Positions 2,405 to 55,159 of a stretch of 64,000 bases of DNA are shown in pieces. Numbering within the stretch: position 1 is the stretch's first letter; each line of letters begins with the position of its first letter. Source of the stretch: Cliona cf. orientalis. Its lineage: Eukaryota; Porifera; Demospongiae; Clionaida; Clionaidae. The notes under the pieces are model-generated. The model was not told the origin of the DNA. It saw only the letters and a list, made by a program, of their open reading frames with translations, and did not search any database. The position numbers were made by a program, and so were the translations under genes. The DNA lies in contig OZ005700.1 of assembly GCA_963930775.1 (NCBI GenBank), positions 4,784,609 to 4,848,608 on the forward strand. The letters run 5' to 3'.

Positions 2405-3426
2405 ATGGCTGTCCAAGCTGAAAATGAATGCCCTGTACTTACGGTGTTGAACACTATAGGTCGTGAGGAGACCCTACTTGCAAAGTCTGAAAGAAATGAA
2501 ACGGTGAAAAGTCAGATCAAATCGATCATGGATGTCATAAAGTCACCGTTGGGGCCCGCTACTAAGATTGAAGCGTTCGACGCTGTTTTATCACGGGAGC
2601 TAGAGAGCCTTGTTACTAAAGGAGTTGATAGCAGAAACTGGGAGCTACTGTGGGTGAGCTATCATAAGCTGAGGCTGAAAAAATTGAAGGAAAATTATGT
2701 GGAAAAATTTCGGTCATGACCTGGGCTTGGGTGAACTAGAGCCAATTTTGGAACAAACAGTGCTCGACAGCGTTCTTGACCTTTTGATGAAACACACCCA
2801 AGACTCCAAGATTTCTAGTGGCAGTGGATCTTCCATTTCTCAATCCAGGGAATCTACTCTCTCTCACATAGAAAAGAATATCGTGAGATATGCTGCTGCA
2901 TATGCCGCCAAGAGCATTAAATAACGCTATGAGAAACTGGACACAGATGAAGCTGCTGAAATTGTGGAATGTCTATCTCAAATGGCTGTTAAAGGACCAG
3001 GAATCAATTTTTATGACTATACACAAGAGTGGACAAAGAAAGTTAATCGTGGTGGACTTTTTGAGGTGAATGAATCCACCTTCTTGTTATTCTGTTCCAT
3101 TGAGTTTAAAGTTCGACAGCTTCTAAATGACACGCCTACTAAATGGGAAAGAGGCAGACATAGAGAAAAAATTTCTGTCTGAATTAACTGCTGATGAAGA
3201 TATATTGTTTTATTGGTCGATGAACAGTGGTTTGCTTCCAAATGATGGGATGGGCTTGCTAAAGGAGATCCTGTCTATGTGGTTAACAATCCGAGGCCAT
3301 TCCATTGCTGGATCTTGGATGGAGACGTACAAATCTTTAAACTAAGCTAGAGTAAAGCTTAAGAAGAAACACAGTGCTGGGCTCAGAGAAAGCTTGAAGT
3401 TAAAAGCTGCAAAGAAGCAAAAGTGA
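2405..3426 (+). pseudogene. Accessory gene of a P-like transposon, decayed copy
   Basis: I do not recognise a named family. The frame starts at an ATG in good context (AGCCATGG) at 2405. It is broken by frameshifts near 2700 and near 3160, both in A-runs, and by in-frame stops at 2922-2924 and 3343-3345. It can be followed to TGA at 3426, ending in a very basic tail. Conserved blocks shared with the copy at 53069-54033 are LW-(x)n-H-x-LR, VRYAAAYA, NRGGLFEVN, ILFYWS and MWLTIRG. No signal peptide or membrane span is evident. Its function is unknown. Its repeated association with a P-like transposase is the main clue. Confidence 0.65.
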
Positions 3427-4822: not shown

Positions 4823-5590
4823 CCCTACCACCATGTATGTGCACGTACACAATCTCTTAGGTGGTGATCAGCCATCGATGAGTATGAGATGGTGAGAGGG
4901 AGGATCACCGAGTTCCACTGCCAAAGAGAAGGTGCTGAGAGAACTAGCTACTCGATCTAGGTCCTCGCACCATCTCTATGGCTGCTTGAGCACTTTCTCT
5001 ATCACCGTAGTTGTCAATGATGGCATAGGAGACAGGTTGTGAAACCTTTAACAACCTTCTGCAAACCTTCAAGAAGGCCTTTGATGGCTGCATAATATCT
5101 TTGTACCACCTAGAAAGCTTTGTCATAATTTGATTTATATGTATTTTATTCAATGTTTCTATGGTGAAATAACAAGAAATTTATACTATTTTTAACAGCG
5201 TATAACTTTGGAACCGCTCGATGGAAAAACTTCGTTCCAGTCTTATATTGTAGAGCAACACAAGAGCTATGGAATGGTACTTGAATCATGGGAATCCATC
5301 CTAGGGAACCAAAATGTGCCACTTTTTGCGCGAGGCACTTTTTGAGAGTAGCATGCACAAAAGCGGTCGCCGCGGAGCTCATGAATGTCTCCGGGTTATA
5401 GGACTTGAACGAGCAGAAAGTAGAAGAGTTGCTCTGTCTTCTGGTCTTTGTTTGGTGTCCTAGAAGTGAAAGATGGCTTAGATAGAACAGGTAAGAAAAA
5501 TAGATAAAAAAACGGCAAAAATTGCATGCACTGGAATGTGCCACCGGATGCACTTCCTGGATCTGCAACAATTGGACCGCTGGCTTAACG

Positions 5591-35215: not shown

Positions 35216-38200
35216 CAGGGGCGGATCCAGAAAATCTGGAAGGGGGGGGCTAGGTAGCTAGTGGGGGCGTGCGAAAGCACGCCCAAGCTAGGGGGGTCTG
35301 GGGGCATGCCCCCCCCAGGAAAATTTTAAAAATTACAACCTCTGAGACCGCTTCTGGTGGCTTCTGAGCCACATGTACAAGCAAAAAAAAACCAATCCAT
35401 TGGCACAAGCGTCTCTAATAAAACGAAAATTAGTGGGTGTGGTCAAACGTCCAACAAAAGTCAATATTGACTCAAAGCCATGGCAACACAGGCAAGTTAT
35501 AAATTACCCTTTTAAAGATGAGTAAAATTTGTGTAATATTATAATTATCAATCTGAAACCATGATTCTTGAATGATTGGCAGCAGTTAATTAACATTGTA
35601 TTAAGTTATAACTAGCTATAATTATTATACTATTGGTAGATATTGTCAGCGTTCAAGTTTAGGGGATACAGACAGACTATTCAATACACATGCGCCTCGG
35701 ATTCCTCTGGGCAAACTGTTGAACAACTTCATCAGCGCTACAGGGGATATCTCGATGAGTGTAAAGAAGTGCAAGACCATTTAGACGACGTTCTGTCATA
35801 GTACTTCGTAGGTATGTCTTGAGATATCGTAAACGACTAACGGATCGCTCACACTCAGCACTAGTGACTGCCAGTGTGCACGCTATCTTGAAGAGAACAT
35901 CAAGATTAGGGAAAAAGTCACTATCAATGCTCTGCAAGACTTTAGCAGGAGTGTTCAAGGTAGCAGCATCTTCAGCCCTTCTACGCCACATTGTACTCCA
36001 GCAGTGTAACTCTGTGTCCATGGATTCGGGAGCAGGCAAATCATCACTGTATTTGCTTACCAAGTCAGCAATATCTACTGAGGTAGGAATCTCCTCTGTT
36101 TCTACTAAAGTTGTTGGAAGGAGTAGCACAATCTGGCAAACTACAGACGAGGAATCATGATGAAACCTGGTATCTATCTCTGCAATTAGATGATCTAACG
36201 CAGGAATGGTAATAACTCGCTTATAATACTCGGAAGCTGATAATGCTGGTGTGTTACTGCGGTGCTGTTGCCTGTTAGTTGTTCTTGGAAGGGATTCTTG
36301 AACATTAACTGTTGAGGCAATTTGCATTGCTCTATCGTACAGGCGTGCATGCACGCTATCAACGTTTTCCCTGGCACTCTTGAGTGTTGTAAGGACCAAA
36401 CTAACATGGTTGTACGCACTCACAACATCTACATAACGGCCTTGAAGCTTTATGCTCAAAGCTTTTGTGTATGCCAGCACATCTTTGGTTATAACCAATG
36501 AAATGATGAAGGGAAATCTGCTCAAAGCAAGAAAGAGTGATTGTGCATCCGCTCTTGTTTCCCTATTCCACTCACCACCTGAATCCTTTATGTGCTCAAA
36601 GCAGTAGACCAAAGGCTCAAATAGGTCTATAAAGACCTCAAATGCTTCGTGTCGCTCAACCCACCGTGTCTTACAGATTGATTTGAGTTTGGTACGTTGC
36701 TCTCCTTCAGATGTTTCATTTATCCAACTCTCAAGAGCAAGTTGCCTCTTTGGAGAATTGGAAAAGAAACGACAAATGCTCTCAGCTGTGTCCATCATAT
36801 TTCTAATCTCAGCAACTGAACAGCACTTGACCACACACAGGTTAAGGGCATGTGCAGCACAGTGCGTGTACATTGCTTTTGGAAAAGCTTCTTGAATACG
36901 CGCTGCTGCACCCCTACTCTTCCCAGCCATCGCACCTGCTCCATCATATGTCTGCCCACGAATATTGGATGCTGAAAGCTGCCATTCATCGAGAAGACGA
37001 AGGATGTGATCTGCAATAGCACTACCAGTCACACCTGTCAAGCATTCACTGAAAGCCAAAAACCTCTCTTCAATGCATTTAGTACTGGGCTTTACATAGC
37101 GTATGCTGACCGCAAGCTGTTCATCATTTGCAGCATCAGTGGCTTCATCTACCATAATGGAGAAAAAAACGAGCTTCACGGATCTGTGCAAGAATGGTTT
37201 CACGAACAATACTGCCACAGATGTCAATGATTTCATTCTGGGTGGTCTTGCTGGTGTAGAGAGCATTGCGATGAGTAGAAGCCGTCCTCAGATGCTCAGC
37301 TAAAACTGTGTCACCACTGAGTGCCCTAAACTGAAGCAGTGCAATAAAGTTGCCAGGATTTAAACTACTACTACTAGATGGATCACTTAGCTGCTTCCAG
37401 TCATCGCGATGCCCTCTAAGAGCTATTCCTTGCCTACCACAGAAAATGACAGTTTCAGCTATGCTTTTGATCTTCTTCCTGTTCTCTGCCACAATCTGTT
37501 GTCGAACAGTAGAGAGCTGCTGGTCAATGGACAAACGCTTGTTTTCCATCACTGCCTTGAAACTCTGAGCTACTTCTACTGCCTGGAGGTGGTACTTACG
37601 TGCTGAGCTATTACTTGTGCCAGAAAAGTGCTCATGAAACTTATCACTTGCCTTTTTAAAGTTAGTAAAAGCACAGGTGACCAAGGCACTGTTTAAACCA
37701 TGCACCGAGTATGGATCCTTACTAAAGAGAACACAAAACTTACAATACCCTCCATTCTCCTTTTCAGAGTACACCAAGCCATTGTACAGGTTGAGCCAGC
37801 TATGCTGAAAGCTCCTCTTCTGTTTTCCAAACTGAGCAGCTGGAAAGCGATAAGAAGCAGAAGGGACAAAGTGCTTGGTCAAAACATGGTACTTTTCATG
37901 CTTAGTTAGAGGGCGTTCCCTCTTCAACTCTACAACACGGCCAAGATCTCCAGACAGTACTGCTGGGTGAAGAGCAGTTTCTTGCTCATCTGTCAACCTA
38001 AAAGAAAAAAAAATGTAAGCTAGGTGTAAAACCACCGGGATTTCACATACGTGGCAGATTCAGGTGAATCCTCCAGGTCGCTCAGGCTGTCAGCAACTGT
38101 AGCTTCCAGATTAGCAGATATACTCAATGTGTCAAGCTCAGTTGAACTGTTATAAACAAGAATAGCTGATGATGTACATTATTAATTTATTCTACAGCCA

Positions 38201-43815: not shown

Positions 43816-46800
43816 TCAGTACAAGGTGGTCCCGTAACGCACAGGTGGGCGTCTGTCTCGGTTACTTCTTCGCAGTTCCGGATTTGGTTTATCACCAGGA
43901 GTATTGGTGTCTGTGTCCACATTCTGGGGATCGGTACTCTCAGGCGTTGATGTCTCCTGTTGGTACCAGTCTGGGGCATGAGCTCCGCCGTATTTCCACA
44001 GCCGGTTCCGGTGGACAACTTTTGGTTTTGTTTTTGGACCGAGTTGGATTCTGTATACCAACTCATTGATTTTCTTTGTGATGACGTATGGTCCTTGCCA
44101 TGGTCGTTGTAGTTTTGGGGTCAACCCTTTCTTTCTTTGAGGGTTATGTAGCCATGCAGCATCTCCTTCTTGCAGTGGTGGAGGTTCCATCTGCAAGTCG
44201 TGCTTCTGCTTCATTCTATTGGTCATTGTTTCAAGGTGCTCTCTTGCAAAATTGTGAACTCTCTCCATCTTTTCTTGCAAGGCGTGTGCATAGTCGCTTG
44301 CTCCTTGGTGTGGCTCTTCTTCAGGTCGCCCAAACATCAGATCAATTGGTAATTTTATTTCTCTTCCCAGCATCATCTTTGATGGGGAGCAGCCAGTAGA
44401 ATCATGATCAGCTGATCGGTATGCCATTACGAGGAATGGGAGATGCAAATCCCAGTCTCTCTGATTGTGATCTGCAAACTTGGACAACTGCATCTCAAGG
44501 GTCCGATTAAATCTTTCGACCATTCCGTCCGAAGCCGGGTGGTAGGGGGTAGTCCTTGTCTTCTTGATGCCAAGCAATTTGCACATTTCTGCGAATAAGA
44601 TCGATTCGAAATTTCTTCCCTGGTCGGAATGTATTTGCTGGGGCACTCCGAATCTGCAAATGACTTCCTTGATGAGTAGCTCGGCAATTGTGGTGGCTTC
44701 CTGGTCGGGTATTGGGAGAGCTTCCACCCATTTGGTAAAATAGTCTGCAATGACGACTATGTACTTGTTTCCAGACTCTGTGAGGGGGAGCGGTCCCAGT
44801 ACATCTAGAGCAATGCGCTCCATGGGGGATCCAACTATGTATTTCCCCATTGGTGCTTTGATCTTTTTCTGGGGCCCTCTCTTTTGTGCACACAGGTCAC
44901 AGTTGCGACACCAATCCTGCACATCTTTCCGGCACTGGACCCAGTAAAATCTCTGTCGAATACGGCCCAGGGTCTTGGCCCTGCCAAGGTGATCAGCTGT
45001 GAGCGTATCATGGAGCTCTTGCAGTACTTCTTGCCGAAGAGACCTTGGGAGAACGAGCTGCTTCACAGTGTCATCTCCTGAAGGAGTTTCCCAAAGCCTG
45101 TAGAGAACTCCGTCAAAGACTCTCAGACTCTGCCATTGTGCATAGTAGATCTTTGTCTTAGAGCTGTGTGGTGCAACGTCTTCCCAACTCGGTTTGTTGC
45201 TGCTTTTTCCAAACCACTCGAGTACTGGCTTGATATCTGGATCGTTAAGCTGGGCTTGCCGGAGCTCGTGTGCAGGTTTGTTGTGAACTGAATTAGATTG
45301 GTTTAACCGGAGTGTAGCAACTTCAGGAATATCACTTTCATCCTGGATTCTCTGCTGCTCTTGTGATTCTAGCTTATCACAATGCTTGCAGGCTTCATTC
45401 AGACATGGTCGTCTTGAGAGAGCATCTGCATTGCCATGCTTAGAACCGGGTCGGTGCTGCACAGTGAAGTCATATTGCTGCAGAGATTGTATCCACCGTG
45501 CAACCTGTCCTTCAGGGCGACGAAAATGTAGCAGCCATTGCAGTGCTGCATGATCAGTGCGGAGTAGGAACTTCCTACCATAAAGGTATGCATGGAAGTG
45601 CTCAATTGACTTCAGCATTGCCAGCAGCTCCTTCCGTGTCACACAATAATGACGCTCAGCTGTGGTTAGTGCTCGGCTAAAATATGCTACGACTCTTTCT
45701 TGCTCGTCAACTTTTTGAGATAGCACACCCCCAATTCCAAATGCACTTGCATCTGTGTCAAGGATGAACGCATGATTTGGATCTGGATAGGCCAGGATGG
45801 GAGGGTTTGTTAATGCCAGCTTTAATTTCTGAAAGGCGTCTTCTGCTTCCCGTGTCCAATCGAAGGGACTGGCCGTAGCCAACTGATGCAGAGGGTGTGC
45901 GATTTCAGCAAAGGAGGGTACAAAGCGCCGGTAGTATGAGCAGAGTCCGAGGAATCTTTTGATCTCCTCAGGTGTAGTGGGGCGGGGCCATTGAGCAACT
46001 GCTTCAACTTTGCCTGGATCTGGCGCAACTCCTTCTCCGCTCACTGTGTGGCCCAGAAACTTCACCTCTCGTTTAAAGAGTGCGCATTTCTTAGGGGAAA
46101 GCTTGAGCTTGGACTTCCTCAAACTCTTGAATACTTGGCGTAGATTGCTAATCTGGTGGGAGAAGGTACATCCTGGCACAACAATATCATCCAGGTAGAC
46201 TAGAGCAATGGATGTGGGCAGTCCGAGGAGTACTTGCTCCATCAGCCTCTCAAAAGTTGCTGGGGCATTACATAGCCCAAATGGCATTACTTTGAACTGC
46301 CACAATCCGCTTCCAGTCGAGAAGGCTGTCTTTTCCTTAGCGGGATCATCCAAGGGCACTTGCCAATATCCACTCTTGAGGTCAAGGGTAGAAAACCACT
46401 CTGCTCCAGCCAGGGCCTCGATGGTATCATCTATACGAGGCAAAGGATAAGAGTCCTTGTGTGTGACGTTGTTCAGCTTGCGGTAGTCCACACAGAATCT
46501 GGTACTCCCATCTTTCTTACTCACAAGGACTATGGGTGAGGACCAGGGGCTTGTGGATGGCTCAATCACATCTAACTCTTTCATTTCCTTGATAGCCCGT
46601 TCTGCCTCCTCCCTCTTACACAGTGGCAGCCTCCTTGGCTGCTGCCGTATTGGCGCTGCTTCTCCAGTATGAATGTGATGTTGCACTATATCAGTGCGTC
46701 CCAAGTCATGTGGGCCTGTAGAGAAAATGTCGGAGAATTCAGATAAGAGCTTGTGTATTTCTTGGCATTCGTTCTCTGCCAGATCACTAGTGCTGCGATC

Positions 46801-47642
46801 GTACAACTCCTTCAGATGTGGTGGAAGTATCTCACCGACATGCATCTTCCTAACATCACCAGCTAGCCGCTCATGGACATTGGCTTCAGGAATATGAACG
46901 GACTTCACATTCTCACAGTGAGCCAGCTCAGCTCCTTTACTGATCATTCGCTGCTGATGAGAGAGGTTAACCACTCGTAGTGGGACATGTTGTTCCTGAA
47001 TATTCACCAGCGTCCTTCCTACCAGTACACCATCAATACTAGCCGACGTTGTGGATCGCTCAAGCAGTCCCCACTGGTAGCTAGCTTTGGCTCCTTCTAT
47101 CTTCGCAGGAACTACGGTTTCTGATCGAGGGGGGAGCTGCACATGCTCTGCTAGCACAACCTTGCAACAAGTGGCCTCTGTAGCAGCTGGTTGCTCTTTC
47201 AGCGGAATTTCCTCTCCAGCAATTGTCAGTGCTCCCTCCTTGAGATTAACAAGACAATCATGGGACTGTAAAAAGTCAAGACCAAGAATGCAATCATCGT
47301 GAATATCAGCTACCCACAACTCTTGAGGTACCAGCAAGGATCCAATACCCAGCTGCAGTTGGCCTTTCCCATGAATGGGTGCTCTCTCCCCAGTGACTGT
47401 CCTGAGGCAGCTATTCACTGGCTCAAGGAGGTTCTGGTCCTCGCCACTCAAGATGTCTGGTCTCACAATAGATATGTTGCTGCCGGTGTCCACTGTGATC
47501 TCACAGGCTGCTCCGTTGACGGTACCTGGAATAGTAAGACTGCTACCACCTGCATAAATGGAACCAGTTTTAAAAATTTCAACAGGGGCTTGAGATTTCT
47601 CAGCCGGACTTTGCCCCGCAAGCCCGGCTAGTTCCCGTTTCC
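43816..47642 (-). CDS. pol: Gypsy Pol polyprotein (protease, reverse transcriptase, RNase H, integrase)
   Basis: It is read in the -1 frame relative to gag, entered by frameshift near 47637, to a stop at 43816 (about 1,275 residues). In order it has: an aspartic protease with DTGS and ILGLDF; reverse transcriptase with FCVDYRKLN, the catalytic YLDD and FLGH; RNase H with LDTDASAFGIGG; an integrase HHCC zinc finger (H...H...CRNCDLC); the integrase DDE core beginning DVLGPLPL, with HSDQGRNF; and a C-terminal GPYVI-type module ending with a proline/arginine-rich tail. No chromodomain was seen. It copies the element RNA to DNA and integrates it. All catalytic motifs are intact. Confidence 0.95.
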
Positions 47643-47643
47643 C
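47602..47643 (-). promoter_or_regulatory. -1 ribosomal frameshift signal between gag and pol
   Basis: The heptamer GGGAAAC (47643-47637 on the minus strand) is phased G-GGA-AAC in the gag frame, two codons before the gag stop. After a 7-nt spacer, a 28-nt hairpin (47629-47602) with stem AGCCGG/CCGGCT and a second CTTGC/GCAA(A)G helix follows. Pol is open in the -1 frame from this point. Confidence 0.85.
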
Positions 47644-48893
47644 GAATGGGAAACCTCTTCTTTCCTCAGCTCTGGGCAGTCCTTCCTCCGGTGGCCCTTC
47701 TGCTCACAATTCCAGCAGATTAGATTGCTCCTGCCACCTTGTGCCCTCTCTCTTCTGAACCTCTGTGGGGAAGATCCAGCAGGCTCCTGACTAAGTCTCA
47801 GTGCCTCCACCAGCTGCTGTAGAAGGTCTGCATTTGCATTCTGCTTGGATGGAGTGCACTCCTGCTGCTGTACTGGCTGCTTCTCCAACTGCACTTCTTG
47901 TACAACTCTAGCCCTCTGCTTGCTTGCCAACTGGTATGATTCGAGCTCCAGTGCAGTCTCCAATGCAGCTCTCAGTGTTGCGGGACGACTCTGCCTTATC
48001 CGCAAGCGCATATCCTCCTCCGGTAGGGCATCAATGAATTGATCTTTTGCCAGCACTTCCACCATCGACTCAGCAGCATCAGGATAGGCAAGTCGAACCA
48101 GTCGCTCGACGTCTTCCGACAGTTCCGGGAGGCTTTCTTCTCTCCGACGAGTACGGGCCTTTAATTTCATTCGGTTTAGTTCCGTCTGGTGGGCGGAGCC
48201 AAATCTGGCCTGCAGCGCTGCTGTAAGTGCTTTGTAGTCTTGCCGATGATCAGGGGGTAGGTTCACCAGCACCGTGGAAGCAGAGCCCCTCAAGCTGATC
48301 GCCAGGTAGGCAGCTTTGTCTAGATCATTCCACTTGTTGATTCGGGCCAGCATCTCAAATTGCGTGTGATACGCATCCCACGTCCCTTTTCCGTCAAAGG
48401 GGGCTGGTCGCTGCATGGCAGTACTGGCTGGGTTTCCAGCCCCAGGACCATGGGAGCTTAACGTGCTTCCCTCGCTAGATCCACTAGCTGCTGCTGTCTC
48501 AGGCGTAGTTCCCTCCGCAGGGATAAACGGTAGGGCTGTAGGACGTAGACCTGTCCTGTCAACTGTTCCCGAAAGTTCTCGCAATAATTCATCATGAAGT
48601 TCAGCTTTAAGGGTCTTCTGTCTCTCCCCCAGCTCTGCTTGCGACTTCTTTACGTTGGAAACGGCTTCCTCCACCTCTCCTAGTCGCCCGTGCACTGTCG
48701 TCTTGACGGAGTCTAAGTCCCCTGCCATAGATCGCACTTGTTCTTGAGTCTCCTCCTGCTTTCTAGCCACCTCATCCACTTTTTGTGACTGCTGCTTGGT
48801 CAGTAACTGTAGCTGCTCAGCCTGCTCATCCATTTTCGCTATCAGCAACTGCAACTGCTCTTCCATCTTTGAGGCAGATCTAGTAGTAACCAT
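47628..48893 (-). CDS. gag: Gypsy Gag structural protein
   Basis: 421 residues. It starts MVTTRSASKMEEQLQLL and is followed by a long glutamine/glutamate-rich coiled-coil-like region (about residues 5-110). A capsid-like region has PFDGKGTWDAYHTQFE (about 165-180) and RGSASTVLVNLP, and a single CCHC zinc knuckle CWNCEQKGHRRKDC lies near the C terminus. It ends GNGN at the TAG within the frameshift signal. It packages element RNA into virus-like particles. The start ATG lies 23 bases inside the 5' LTR boundary, just after the primer-binding site. Confidence 0.93.
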   Translation of the reverse strand: MVTTRSASKMEEQLQLLIAKMDEQAEQLQLLTKQQSQKVDEVARKQEETQEQVRSMAGDLDSVKTTVHGRLGEVEEAVSNVKKSQAELGERQKTLKAELHDELLRELSGTVDRTGLRPTALPFIPAEGTTPETAAASGSSEGSTLSSHGPGAGNPASTAMQRPAPFDGKGTWDAYHTQFEMLARINKWNDLDKAAYLAISLRGSASTVLVNLPPDHRQDYKALTAALQARFGSAHQTELNRMKLKARTRRREESLPELSEDVERLVRLAYPDAAESMVEVLAKDQFIDALPEEDMRLRIRQSRPATLRAALETALELESYQLASKQRARVVQEVQLEKQPVQQQECTPSKQNANADLLQQLVEALRLSQEPAGSSPQRFRRERAQGGRSNLICWNCEQKGHRRKDCPELRKEEVSHSGNGN

Positions 48894-49167: not shown

Positions 49168-49985
49168 ATATAATCAAAATGGGTTGAAAAATCATGAACC
49201 TCCGAGATAGGGACAACCTCCGAGCAAAGGACAAGAGGCCCGTTCCCAAAGTGTCCTTTGTTCGGAGGCTCGACTGTATAACTGTCTAATTTATTATTCA
49301 TGTGAACTTTGACCATGCGTGGGCGGAACACTATCCCGTAACCTTAATCATAGATAATATAGACTACGTAACCGGGATTGGAAACGCGCGCGCCGCCCCA
49401 TAGTGTTCTAGGCAACCGAGTGCGGCCGATGATTGTTCCTGATAAGGTTGTCTGGAGCAAATATTCGCGGTACCCGAGAAGAAGGAAGTGGTCAGGACTT
49501 AACGAGTGTGGGCGTTTCAGGTAGCTTCTAAGCATGCCAACTTACAGCGCTGATGCACGCTGAGTAGATAAAGCAAATAAAGAAGCAACGTACCTATTTA
49601 CACAGCATATTTGGGGCAGTTTGTTATGCAGCAAAGGTATAGACTCTTCTTTTCGGACTGTAGCTTAAAACTAAGTACTCTACAATGCTCATTCATGAGT
49701 TAAAAATGAAGTGTAAGAGTGTTAATATGAGGTTAGATGGTGGTTGGCTGTGGTGGCTGTGGAAAATACTTGCCATGGGGGTGAAAAAGGACTCAGTAGT
49801 GGATATAGCTAGGCAGACTTTGTAGGACTGTGGAGTTCCATAAACTGATGTCAGAAATAAAATTATTGGATTTTCAATCACTTTTACGTCCCTTATATGA
49901 GGTTAACTAGGATATTTGGTTTGGTATTAAATATTTATTACAGAATATCTAGTTCAAAAGTGGGCATTCACCCTTCATTTCCTTA

Positions 49986-52900
49986 ATGTATACTATGCAC
50001 AATGATATTGCAGATATGGGAGTAAGCAAATTGAGATTTAGGTATCCCAAGAATTATGAGAGAAAGAAGTATGCTGTTCGTTCTCTACCCATTTCGATAT
50101 CTCTTAGCAAGCATGTAATGGCTTATCGAGTGTTGGTTCCTTTGTACCTGATTACACCTCCTGAGCTTGTGGTCTCTCTACCCATTGCCTCATCGTACCG
50201 AGAATGCCCAGTACGCAATCTGTCGCATCTTCAGTCTAGACTGACAAGAGAGACGGGTAGTCTACCTGATGACTGGATTAATTTAACACAGTCTCACCCC
50301 TCCCCAGAAAAGATCGTGCTTGCCAAGTTTAATCTACATTCCATTCTTGGTGCTCCAGCCTGCGTCATCACAATTGATGACAATTTTACCTGGACGTTGG
50401 CATGCTACGGTGTTCAAGGTAGAATGTAGAGCACTTGATTCCCTTCCTGATACGCTCACATGCTTGCAAGATGTGAGTAGGGCCCTGCATATTGTCTCGA
50501 CTGGGCAGTTATGTGCAGGTAATGCTGCAACGGAATTCCAAGCGGTTGTTGACATGAATAATGGAGGAGCTTTCAAGGATCGAGCAGGTACTAACATTGT
50601 TATAATTAAGGCCCACCGCCCACATGCATGCTTTAGCTATCACCACGTCAATTGTTGTTATTTTATTACAGGAAAGCAAGTTGCTTACCAAGATTCATTG
50701 TCATTGCAACAGCCAACAATCAGATCGAGTTCCTGTGAATTCATTCTGCCATCAGGCAGCAAAAGTAAACGCTGTACAGCTTGCTCGTCGTTTCGATCCA
50801 ATCTGAGAATCCGTCAAAAACGTTTGATGTCTAGATCCAGTGAGATCAGAGTGTCCGTCTCAAGTCGTGCCCCTTACAGTAGTCTCTCTCAAGAAGAAAT
50901 GAAGAAACGAATGGCAAACCTTCAACAAGAGCTCAGCAGAATCAGGAAGCAAAATATGCGACTGAAAGCAAAAGTAGCTGAAGAATCAGAAAGTATTGGA
51001 GTTACAGTTGATAGTGACATACACCAGGACTTAGAGAAGATAATGGAAGAAGAAGAAGAGAAGAAGCCTACCTGCCACCAAAACTCATTTCAGAGACTAT
51101 TTTGGGAACAACAGCTTAATGCTGCACGGCAACGTAATGCTAACTCTATGAGATGGCACCCACTAATGATTCGTTGGTGTCTTTATCTCAGACACCAGTC
51201 GCAATCAGCATACGAGACATTAAGATCAACTGGATGCATTTCTCTCCCATCGCAACGTACACTGCGCGACTACACTCACTACATTCCAGCTACAACAGGC
51301 TTCAGTGTTGATGTTGACGAGCAACTCATGGATGCAGGTAAAATCCTTACCTGTGAGGACTATGAGAAATGTGTCATCTTGCTCCTGGATGAAATGCACA
51401 TCAGGGAGAATCTGGTTTTTGATAAGACTACAGGTGCACTTGTTGGCTTCGTGAACATCGGAGACACCAATTCTCATCTTCTTGAGTATGAACGCTCACT
51501 TCAGCAATTTTCCACTCCCAGACGTCCAGAGTTGGCCAAAACCATGATGGTCTTCATGGTTAGAGGGCTCTTCACCAGCCTTCGATTTGCATATGCCCAA
51601 TTTTCCTGTAAGAATGTGACAGCGGATCTCTTATTTGATCCCTTCTGGGAGGCAGTTTACAGACTTGAAAGATGTGGGTTTAAGGTAATTAAATCCTACA
51701 ATCATGCATAACTAGTTAAATTTTCTGTCAACATTAATTTTGTTCTAGGTGCTGGGAGTAACTTGTGACGGTGCTTCTACAAACCGCCGACTTATCAAGC
51801 TTCATGACACAAATGCAAGCCTGGTGTATAAGGTGAAAAATCCATATGCTACAGATGATCGAAGTTTTTTCTTCTTTTCTGACCCACCTCATCTCATGAA
51901 GACAACAAGAAATTGTTGGGCATCAAAGTGTAGAACTTTGTGGGTAAGCAAGTCGATATTCATGACAAAATAATAGGTGTATACTCTACCTGTATAATAT
52001 ATCCATGCACAGAATGATGGAAAGGAGATACTCTGGCAGCATTTGGTGACCCTGTACGAACAGACCAGACGTCAGGCTGGATTAAGCATCCTTCCAAAGC
52101 TCAAGTATGAGGACATGTACTTGAGTTCATTCTCGAAGATGAGAGTGGACCTTGCAACACAGGTATAAAATTTTTTATTTGTAGATAACGTTCTGTGCAC
52201 ATGCATGCACCAGCTAGGGTACGGTAGTCTGTCTGTCTGTCTGATACCACTCCACTGCCTGTCCTTGTTGTATAGGTACTAAGTGAATCAGTCTCCAAGG
52301 CACTGTATCTACTCGGAGGCACAGCTTGTGAGGGCAGTGCAAAATTTGCCGAAATGTTCGACAAGTACTTTGACACTCTGAATGTGTCAAACTTCACAAA
52401 TGGAAAGGTAAACAGGAAGCCATTTCAGTCTCCGTTCAGGTCAAGTGAAGATTTTCGATTGAAGGTAGCTAATTATAAAATTTAGTACATGTGGTACAAT
52501 AATTATTAAATTTATTTCATCAGTGGTTGGAAAGGGAATTTCTTCCTTACCTCGACAAATGGGAAGAGAGTGTAAGCAAGAGGGAAGGTTTTAAACCCTG
52601 TGAGCAGAAACGAATGATATTAAGTCGAGAAACTCTTCTTGGCCTAAGAATGACTGGTAAATGAACTTGTAATAAATTAATGTAACTATTATTGACATTA
52701 ATTTTATTTTTTGCAGCTCATTCATTCATTGAACTGGTTGAGTACCTCTTTACTCTCCCTGGCGTTAAGGTATTCTTAAGTCAAAGGCTATGTCAAGACC
52801 CCTTGGAAAAGTTTTTCGGTTGCCAGCGACAGAGGGGTGGTGCACATGACAATCCTAGTGTTCTTGACTTTTGCCGAAATACCCAGGCTTTGAGAGTTAT

Positions 52901-53027
52901 CAACAACCTTTGCGGAAATGTGAAGAAAGGAAACTGTCGCGGAAATAAAATGGACGAATCAATAGACATCAACGACAAAGAAAATGTGCCTCTCCCAAAG
53001 AGAAGAAAAATTATTAACAATCGTTAA
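49986..53027 (+). CDS. P-element-like transposase (THAP9/P family), multi-exon
   Basis: An N-terminal part (49986 to about 50420: YPKNYERKK, SSYRECPVRNLSHLQSRLTR, SLPDDWI) is joined out of frame to the next segment near 50415, so either a missed splice or a 1-base break exists there. From about 50430 exons join in frame at 50587/50672, 51684/51749, 51943/52013, 52162/52276, 52464/52524 and 52656/52717, all GT-AG, introns 59-113 bp. Domains: CX2C-like RCTACSSFR, a coiled coil (KKRMANLQQELSRIRKQ), RNase-H-like core with LLDEMHIREN and VTCDGASTNRRLIKLH, the GTP-binding-insertion-like region, and a C-terminal DPLEKFFGCQRQRGG block. The catalytic Asp residues are visible. It would cut and join the element ends. 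A basic KRRKIINNR tail could serve nuclear import. Confidence 0.82.
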
Positions 53028-53068
53028 CAATAATTATTAACTAGCATAAACTGCTGTACAACAATTAT

Positions 53069-54033
53069 TTAGCTATTTGGGTTACTTAATAGGTGCTTTC
53101 TGACACCTTTAGTTTTCTGGACACAGGTTTTTGTCTCCCTTTTGTGCCTTTCGACCCATCCATTAGCATAGGCGAAACCACGGATCGTGATCCATAAATC
53201 TGCTATCATTGATAAAAGAGCCTTCTGTACTTCTTGTTCCCAGCTTGCAGAAATGATTGACCAGTAAAATTGTACATCGTTGTCGACTAAGATCAATGGA
53301 ATGGTACTTTGTCTTAGATTAACATTCTCTCCAAACTCTATCCTACGAAACTGTTTGAGAAGCTGAAGTTCCATGGACGTAATTAGCATGAAGACGTTGT
53401 GGTTAACATGAATCAAACCTCCTCTATATATCAATCACCTTCTCCCAGTCTTTTGATTCGTGTGGACTTTCTTCTTCATCTTCTGTAAGCTCGGTTAAGC
53501 ACAAAATTAATTCGACTTTGTGCTCGTGGCCAGACCGATCCAGTTTCGTTCTTAGGGCTCTAGGGATATACCCGGCAGCGTACCTAAGTGCGTTTTGTTC
53601 TTCGTAAGTTAGGGTTGGGGTATAGGTTGTATCATCTGGTTTGGTGGTTACACATAACTTTTGCTTCAGTAAAATCCTAAAGAGTCTATCACTAATGTTT
53701 TGATACAGGATAGGGGTTGATTTGCTGCCAATGCTCGCGGTGAGAAACTGCTGCCATCTTTTCACAAAGTCTGAATGTGTTCTCAACTGGTGGAATGCTT
53801 CCCATATCCTTTCACGGTTTATTCTCGGTACTGTACTTTTTTGAACCAAACAACTGCTAAAAGAATCGAGTAGTCCTCTTAGAAAAGTGGTGAGGATTCG
53901 GTAGTTGATTGGCCGTGAAGTTGATTCTAGACTCCACCGTTGTAATTTGACAGCATCCTTATGGGCTTCAATGGTGGATGGTGATGGCAATTGAAAGCCA
54001 GGATCATCAACAACATCTTGTAGGGCATTTTTG
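53069..54033 (-). pseudogene. Accessory gene of the P-like transposon
   Basis: It reads from an acceptor-like CTGTAG near 54040 through ALQDVVDDPGF, INYRILTTFLRGLLDSFSS, IWEAFHQLRTHSDFVKRWQQ and LRYAAGYIPRALR to about 53425. A one-base frame change between WEKVID and YRGGLIHVN follows, then VQFYWS, LWITIRGFAYANGWVERHKR and a basic tail, with the stop at 53069. The order of motifs equals that of 2405-3426. No known catalytic motif is recognised. The start codon is unclear because the 5' flank contains a MITE. It is oriented against the transposase gene, and the two could share a terminator region. Confidence 0.6.
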
Positions 54034-54091
54034 AATCGCTGTGTCTACAGTGCCAGTACGGCACCGCAATTTAAGCGTTATAGTACCTGTA

Positions 54092-54416
54092 ATGCACCTG
54101 TCAATGGTATGCCCCACCACCCCTACATGGGGCAAATATGGGGACAATGTAGGAGATATGCAAAATCAAGCCTGCCCTAGGGGTGGGGCATTGTCATGCC
54201 CAAAATCAAGTGCTAATCAATAATGTTGAAGCTAACACAATGGGCATAGGTCAAGAAGTAAGCCAGCTGGCAACAAAGAATAGAATATGTGGGGGCTTTG
54301 CATAGCTTGAAGTGCCCCAGGGGTGGGGACTTATTGAAATTCGAAAGGAACAATCCCCACTTTGCCCCACATCGGCCCCATGTACGGGTAGTGGGGCATA
54401 CCACTGACAGGTGCAT
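54092..54416. mobile_element. MITE with ATGCACCTGTCA ends
   Basis: The ends ATGCACCTGTCAATGGTATG and GACAGGTGCAT are inverted, with GCCCCACCACCC / GTAGTGGGGC just inside. 325 bp and non-coding. It lies upstream of the accessory gene. Confidence 0.8.
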
Positions 54417-54618
54417 AAGTCCATATAAAATACTGTACTCTTACGTAGCCCTAGTCCCCGCCCCCTCCTGCATATGGCAATATAAATTTGTACATAACCG
54501 TATTATTATCGTGCAGCTGCGGCTAGATCATGTCACTTACAACTAACTTCCGGGTTTACTTCCTGAATAACACACATCCGATCCGCGTTACAGAGCGTAT
54601 GTTTTGGACCGTTACAGA

Positions 54619-54746
54619 GCGTATGTTTTGGACCGGGTCAAAGGTCAAATCGTGCGCTTTAACCATAGATCATATAGACTACGTAACCTATATGATCTAT
54701 GGTTAAAGCGCACGATTTGACCTTTGACCCGGTCCAAAACATACGC
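54619..54746. repeat. Perfect palindrome, 58-bp arms with a 12-bp centre
   Basis: The left arm starts GCGTATGTTTTGGACC and ends GATCATATA, and the right arm is its exact complement. The centre GACTACGTAACC plus the left arm's end equals a P-like terminus (54664-54688). The arms extend 45 bp beyond the transposon end into flanking sequence. Confidence 0.92.
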
Positions 54747-55159
54747 TCGGTGCGGCATGTGCAGTTGATCAGTGTTGGTACAGGGTTGTGGTGGTTTCTT
54801 GATGGTGGCTTTATTGATCTGGCGCACTAAGCTAATTGGGCAGTCGAAATAGTCATGTCTGTAAGTTGTATTAAAATGCTAATTCCTTAGTTGAAGTATA
54901 TATGTGTGAAGTTTAAAGTGTGCTATTTAATATGTTGGAACAATATTAATCAAACACTAGCTCTGGCGGACTTGTCAGCATATAAAATAGCGTTGAAGGT
55001 GACATTACAATGCTGCGTGCAGGAAAACGCTGGAGGGCAGTATTAATCTTGTCCCCAGCTAGCAGTCCTTAATTTCACAAGAGGGAGGAAGGCACGACAC
55101 CAGACCTTTCCTTCCTGCTATTGTGAAGGGGCTGGCTTGCCTGACTAGTCTGCAAAAAC
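54747..55159. other. Gene-free stretch
   Basis: No feature was found apart from the R8-like left edge near 55130. Confidence 0.35.

Follow-up and report, generated by a model that had tools for sequence, protein, structure and literature searches.

Why should a P-like transposon carry a second gene that runs towards its transposase from the opposite strand? The question is raised by an element in a 64,000-nucleotide stretch of the Cliona cf. orientalis genome (GCA_963930775.1, contig OZ005700.1, positions 4,784,609 to 4,848,608, forward strand; hereafter the window), in which a plus-strand transposase gene and a minus-strand accessory gene end tail to tail. Our preferred answer, held with a probability of roughly 0.77, is that this P-like cut-and-paste transposon has its transposase split in two, one gene providing the catalytic chain and the other a separate protein with the C-terminal domain (CTD). 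This is suggested by the recurrent convergent pairing, by the point at which the transposase chain stops and by the predicted fold of the accessory protein.

The gene pair in the window and in other copies

The element in the window has the following parts.
49349..49386, plus strand: left terminal inverted repeat CATAGATAATATAGACTACGTAACCGGGATTGGAAACG, present as an identical 38-bp motif in loci L002, L003/L039 and L042
50290..53027, plus strand: coding region of the P-like transposase, several exons (tblastn matches 50290-52180 and 52701-53024; Pfam RNaseH_N and RNaseH_C)
51295..51690, plus strand: RNase H N-terminal domain PF21787 (profile match G000:C12:4835903-4836298)
52701..53027, plus strand: last transposase exon, with the putative catalytic Glu in QDPLEKFFG at about 52805
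53069..54104, minus strand: accessory (CTD) gene, its frame shifted at about 53424-53434
53072..53618, minus strand: accessory part matching the P-transposase CTD, with basic tail (residues 149-329 of the accessory protein P0001, an approximate projection by hand)
54092..54416, no strand: inverted repeat resembling a miniature inverted-repeat transposable element within the 5' portion of the accessory region (52-nt arms, 88% complementary), probably an insert
54614..54751, no strand: palindrome at the element's right end (69-nt arms, 96% complementary, no spacer)

An earlier annotation made from the letters alone (the sequence-only reading) had proposed a P-like transposon, with which the RNaseH_N and RNaseH_C matches and the inverted repeat agree, and had placed the ends of the two genes 41 bp apart, which is the gap between the transposase stop at 53025-53027 and the accessory stop at 53069-53071. 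Its left boundary, 49349, also holds, but its right boundary, 54707, has no clean repeat and falls inside the palindrome, which has taken the place of the element's right terminus or interrupted it, leaving it scrambled. The window transposase runs 73 aa past the putative Glu to its stop, with the basic end PLPKRRK; its coordinates give the extent of the matches and are provisional as to the start and integrity of this copy. The accessory copy is broken, because it is divided between two open reading frames in different frames (53069-53434 and 53424-53990, overlapping at 53424-53434). In L002 and L003 the gene stays open across this stretch, over 328 and 329 codons, respectively.

A complete element was found at locus L055, with perfect 39-bp inverted repeats (677-715 and 5547-5585), GACACAT on both flanks and an unfilled site visible by eye in the surrounding tandem repeat. 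The flanking duplications are CTTGCAC at L044, which has the accessory gene and both repeats and no transposase that could be found, and GTAGAAC at L043. Motifs close to CATAGATAATATAGACTACGTAACCGGGATTGGAAACG occur at both ends of L043 and L044, and a diverged form occurs in L055. All three loci combine inverted repeats with the 7-8-bp target duplication of the P superfamily, the duplication measuring 7 bp, or possibly 8 bp in two of the three if a terminal G is counted.

Pairing and orientation across the genome

Pairing was counted in the source genome alone (217 Mb, 149 contigs). In a first survey, the first accessory piece gave at least 81 matches (77 merged loci) and PF21787 at least 118 (111 merged loci); a transposase lay within 10 kb in 61 of the 77 accessory loci, always convergent and with the accessory gene downstream, and 16 had none. 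The addition of a second accessory query and a second transposase query raised the merged sets to at least 87 accessory loci (type 1) and at least 140 transposase loci, all genome match counts being lower bounds for which only the best candidates were scored. Within 5 kb, 61 of the 87 type-1 loci were paired, 60 convergently and one, part of a nested cluster, with both genes on one strand, and 26 were unpaired; at 10.5 kb there were 64 convergent and two same-strand cases. By chance, a transposase match would be expected within 5 kb of about 0.6% of random positions. The 61 pairs are not independent events, because the copies are related: 47 accessory-bearing loci that were compared, some of them overlapping, fell into 19 clusters at 70% identity. 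The two proteins have been inherited together, as their distances correlate across 11 families (Mantel r 0.72, p 0.0002; each family represents one of the 19 clusters, taken where the last transposase exon could be read).

The 16 loci without a partner in the first survey were examined by closer tblastn, which recovered convergent transposase remnants in nine (L039, L040, L042, L043, L046, L047, L048, L050 and L051), a distant transposase piece on the opposite strand in L041, short transposase fragments on the same strand as the accessory gene in L053 and L054, and no transposase remnant in L044, L045, L049 and L052. From the other side, the downstream sequence of two of the 50 transposase loci left partnerless in the first survey was fetched. 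L056 holds a convergent gene of a second type, and L057 a convergent, frame-broken stretch that is type-1-like by eye (YMSGYVAVKLL, IDRGGLYHV) and has no Pfam CTD match. The unpaired counts are therefore probably upper bounds. The sequence-only reading had taken homologues lying mostly alone as the result that would count against a conserved pair; with 61 of 87 loci paired and remnants in nine of the 16 loci first scored as alone, the convergent order is instead recurrent in this genome. Separately, L039 and L042 (G000:C1:6208693-6224178) contain two near-identical accessory genes in facing orientation, separated by about 5 kb and flanked on either side by matching sequence, resembling a large palindromic duplication.

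Two of the 16 loci unpaired in the first survey, L053 and L054, have same-strand pieces, which would suit a different explanation, namely that trans-splicing or an inversion of the 3' half links the CTD gene with the transposase and the active protein is a single chain; so would the position of the split, which is about that of the linker in the fly enzyme. Yet these same-strand cases are short fragments, each gene has its own stop codon and basic end, and in L055 the two stops lie about 170 bp apart and the transposase frame needs no further exon. We consider a single chain quite improbable.

The type-2 gene found at L056 is different and diverged. Its 42 merged loci include 36 with a transposase within 5 kb, every one convergent, and six with none; at 10.5 kb one additional transposase appears, on the same strand. 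The L056 transposase has PF21787 above cut-off and ends 68 aa past its putative Glu, with a gap of 23 bp to the stop codon of its partner. The type-2 and type-1 proteins are alike by eye in motif order (YR.CG, DRG, TR, LRD) and helix order; kinship with the CTD was confirmed neither by profile comparison, which gave a weak result, nor by fold search, the P-transposase structure 6p5a being absent among the 50 matches listed in either search with the type-2 model (mean predicted local distance difference test score 79). A relative occurs in Amphimedon queenslandica (LOC109584445, 41% identity).

The two proteins

The L055 transposase has 845 open codons in six exons with GT-AG introns, the exon borders being chosen by hand. 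Its 845-aa product matched RNaseH_N, the GTP-binding insertion and RNaseH_C above the Pfam cut-offs (PF21787, PF21788 and PF21789) and no other family at E ≤ 1, including no CTD family; the window pieces matched PF21787 and PF21789 above cut-off. By these domain matches, gene 1 belongs to the P superfamily in the broad sense, having an RNase H domain with a GTP-binding insertion. In L055, 72 residues separate the putative catalytic Glu from the basic end, and the stop comes 68-79 aa after the Glu in 24 of 29 rows with the Glu motif, or 18 of 21 distinct copies, since overlapping loci repeat some copies. Earlier stops occur in L002 (29), L014 (9) and L023 (56), and two rows are cut by locus ends. 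A genome profile search for an in-frame CTD with PF22824 and PF12596 gave no match, and the controls likewise gave none, so this search carries no weight either way. As far as the translated chains tell, gene 1 lacks the CTD, which canonical P and THAP9 proteins carry on their catalytic chain.

The N-terminal THAP domain of the canonical proteins is likewise not seen: at E ≤ 1, neither the 845-aa protein nor the 100-aa frame upstream of it in L055 matched a THAP family. The genome has 95 THAP matches, and one lay upstream on the same strand within 10 kb in 1 of 140 transposase loci (C12:4016348) and in 0 of 96 paired loci. That THAP-bearing locus (G000:C12:4013593-4016518, plus strand) has no listed convergent partner and has stop codons in both matches; it may be a canonical THAP-bearing relative. 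A related transposase is LOC135337575 of Halichondria panicea (68% identity). Another P-like transposase, P0174, carries the database label of an uncultured Candidatus Thioglobus bacterium; host contamination of a symbiont assembly is the probable cause.

The conserved blocks that had been picked out in the accessory protein are kept in an alignment of 90 members, in which W103, G164, W206, R212, G213 and G214 are invariant. The sequence-only reading could not place the protein in a known family, but structure prediction places its C-terminal half with the P-transposase CTD: residues 149-308 of the P0001 model match the fold of this domain in 6p5a, and residues 1-148 form an extra N-terminal helical part. 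The top PDB sequence match of one member is the same domain. Pfam Tnp_P_element_C or THAP9_C matched 27 of the 90 proteins at E ≤ 0.1, and one of eight scanned singly exceeded the Pfam cut-off (P0116); precomputed THAP9_C labels on 12 of 120 were not reproduced in the six tested locally. Ratios of nonsynonymous to synonymous change (dN/dS) in three pairs of near copies were 0.28, 0.36 and 0.94 (NG86), and 0.22 and 0.56 for the first two (YN00), with too few changes to lean on; in three wider pairs synonymous sites were saturated (dN 0.37-0.52).

The sequence-only reading had also suggested a targeting factor or a host gene captured by the element; on such a view, gene 2 would have no kinship with the transposase and would be carried along as a passenger. 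The lack of a convincing Pfam family for P0001 and the window accessory pieces is in keeping with that idea; the fold and the PDB match, the absence of this very domain from the neighbouring transposase, and a multi-copy family mostly adjoining transposases all speak against it. A captured gene is disfavoured by fold and pairing, and we hold it to be the least probable of the explanations. A further suggestion of the sequence-only reading, a cofactor, came close, and a missing transposase domain made in trans would describe the protein more exactly.

A possible division of the transposase, and neighbouring sequences

Under the split-transposase reading, the plus-strand gene would encode the catalytic subunit, with an N-terminal part without THAP match followed by RNase H with its GTP-binding insertion, and would close with a short basic tail, roughly at the position of the flexible linker in the fly P transposase. 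The minus-strand gene, read from near the opposite inverted repeat, would give a separate all-helical protein comprising an N-terminal helical part (~150 aa), the P-transposase CTD and a basic tail. The two proteins would most likely meet in the transpososome, where the CTD protein may sit between the RNase H and GTP-binding parts and hold transposon-end and target DNA, by analogy with the tethered CTD of the fly. According to the passages of PMC7776569 drawn on here, that CTD is all-helical with basic C-terminal residues and is attached through a disordered linker; it is placed between RNase H and another subunit's GTP-binding domain, where it touches both transposon and target DNA. Gene 2 would then probably be required for transposition and be regulated separately, and it is plausible, again by analogy, that an independent supply of the CTD acts as an activity switch.

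The accessory protein could instead be a CTD-derived repressor or decoy that binds the ends or target DNA in competition with the transposase and is no working subunit. The sizeable additional helical region at its N-terminus (residues 1-148 of the model) would fit such a role, as would the natural truncated P protein of flies, which lacks the C-terminal third and is a repressor (PMC7776569, passages cited). On the other hand, a CTD-only protein would then regulate an enzyme that itself shows no CTD, and the long co-inheritance of the pair, still compatible with a regulator, fits a needed subunit better. We therefore regard a regulator as unlikely.

More tentatively, the arrangement could mark an animal P-like branch, with at least two deeply diverged lineages in this genome, in which an inverted gene supplies the end- and target-DNA-holding domain in trans. 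It may even be ancestral, with fly P and THAP9 as later fusions, and the two promoters may serve as an activity switch; we would not yet put this broader proposal at even odds. P elements are textbook transposons whose CTD is known as a tethered domain, and with a natural split close to the disordered linker, what the CTD does can be tested directly. If the split-transposase reading is correct, nature would here have produced a two-component transposase whose catalytic and DNA-holding parts can be separated, many unnamed proteins (201 database clusters at E ≤ 0.001) would gain a likely identity, and another convergent two-gene DDE transposon would join the RAG1/RAG2-like ones. In the latter, RAG2L is a kelch-type partner unrelated to the transposase; unlike that of ProtoRAG, the partner here is similar to a domain found within the transposase family. 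Two convergent genes in one transposon, RAG1-like and RAG2-like, are nonetheless common ground with these RAG-like elements (PMC7204232, in part).

The Drosophila P element and vertebrate THAP9 share with this element the RNase H domain with GTP-binding insertion, the inverted repeats, the short target duplications and the helical CTD with a basic end; however, each is a single gene whose one protein chain includes both a THAP domain and a tethered CTD (PMC7776569, same passages), whereas the L055 transposase has no THAP match and its CTD counterpart has an inverted gene to itself. Galileo, a Drosophila member of the P superfamily, has 7-bp flanks like those of L043, L044 and L055 but long, internally repetitive inverted repeats, and a convergent CTD gene goes unmentioned in the passages of PMC3573991 consulted. 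No P-like element with a separate CTD gene was found in the titles and abstract openings listed by searches of openly licensed papers, some of which listed only part of their matches; the parts are known, and the split, inverted arrangement did not appear in those listings.

Elsewhere in the window, a second accessory-gene fragment lies at 2555-3393 (plus strand), and tblastn matched transposase only in the element under study. Directly left of that element, at 43816-48893 (minus strand), are a pol frame of 1225 aa and a gag-like frame of 421 aa, which we take to be a Ty3/gypsy-like retroelement. Two overlapping frames of 529 and 296 aa at 35677-38035 (minus strand) presumably resemble a hAT-type transposase.
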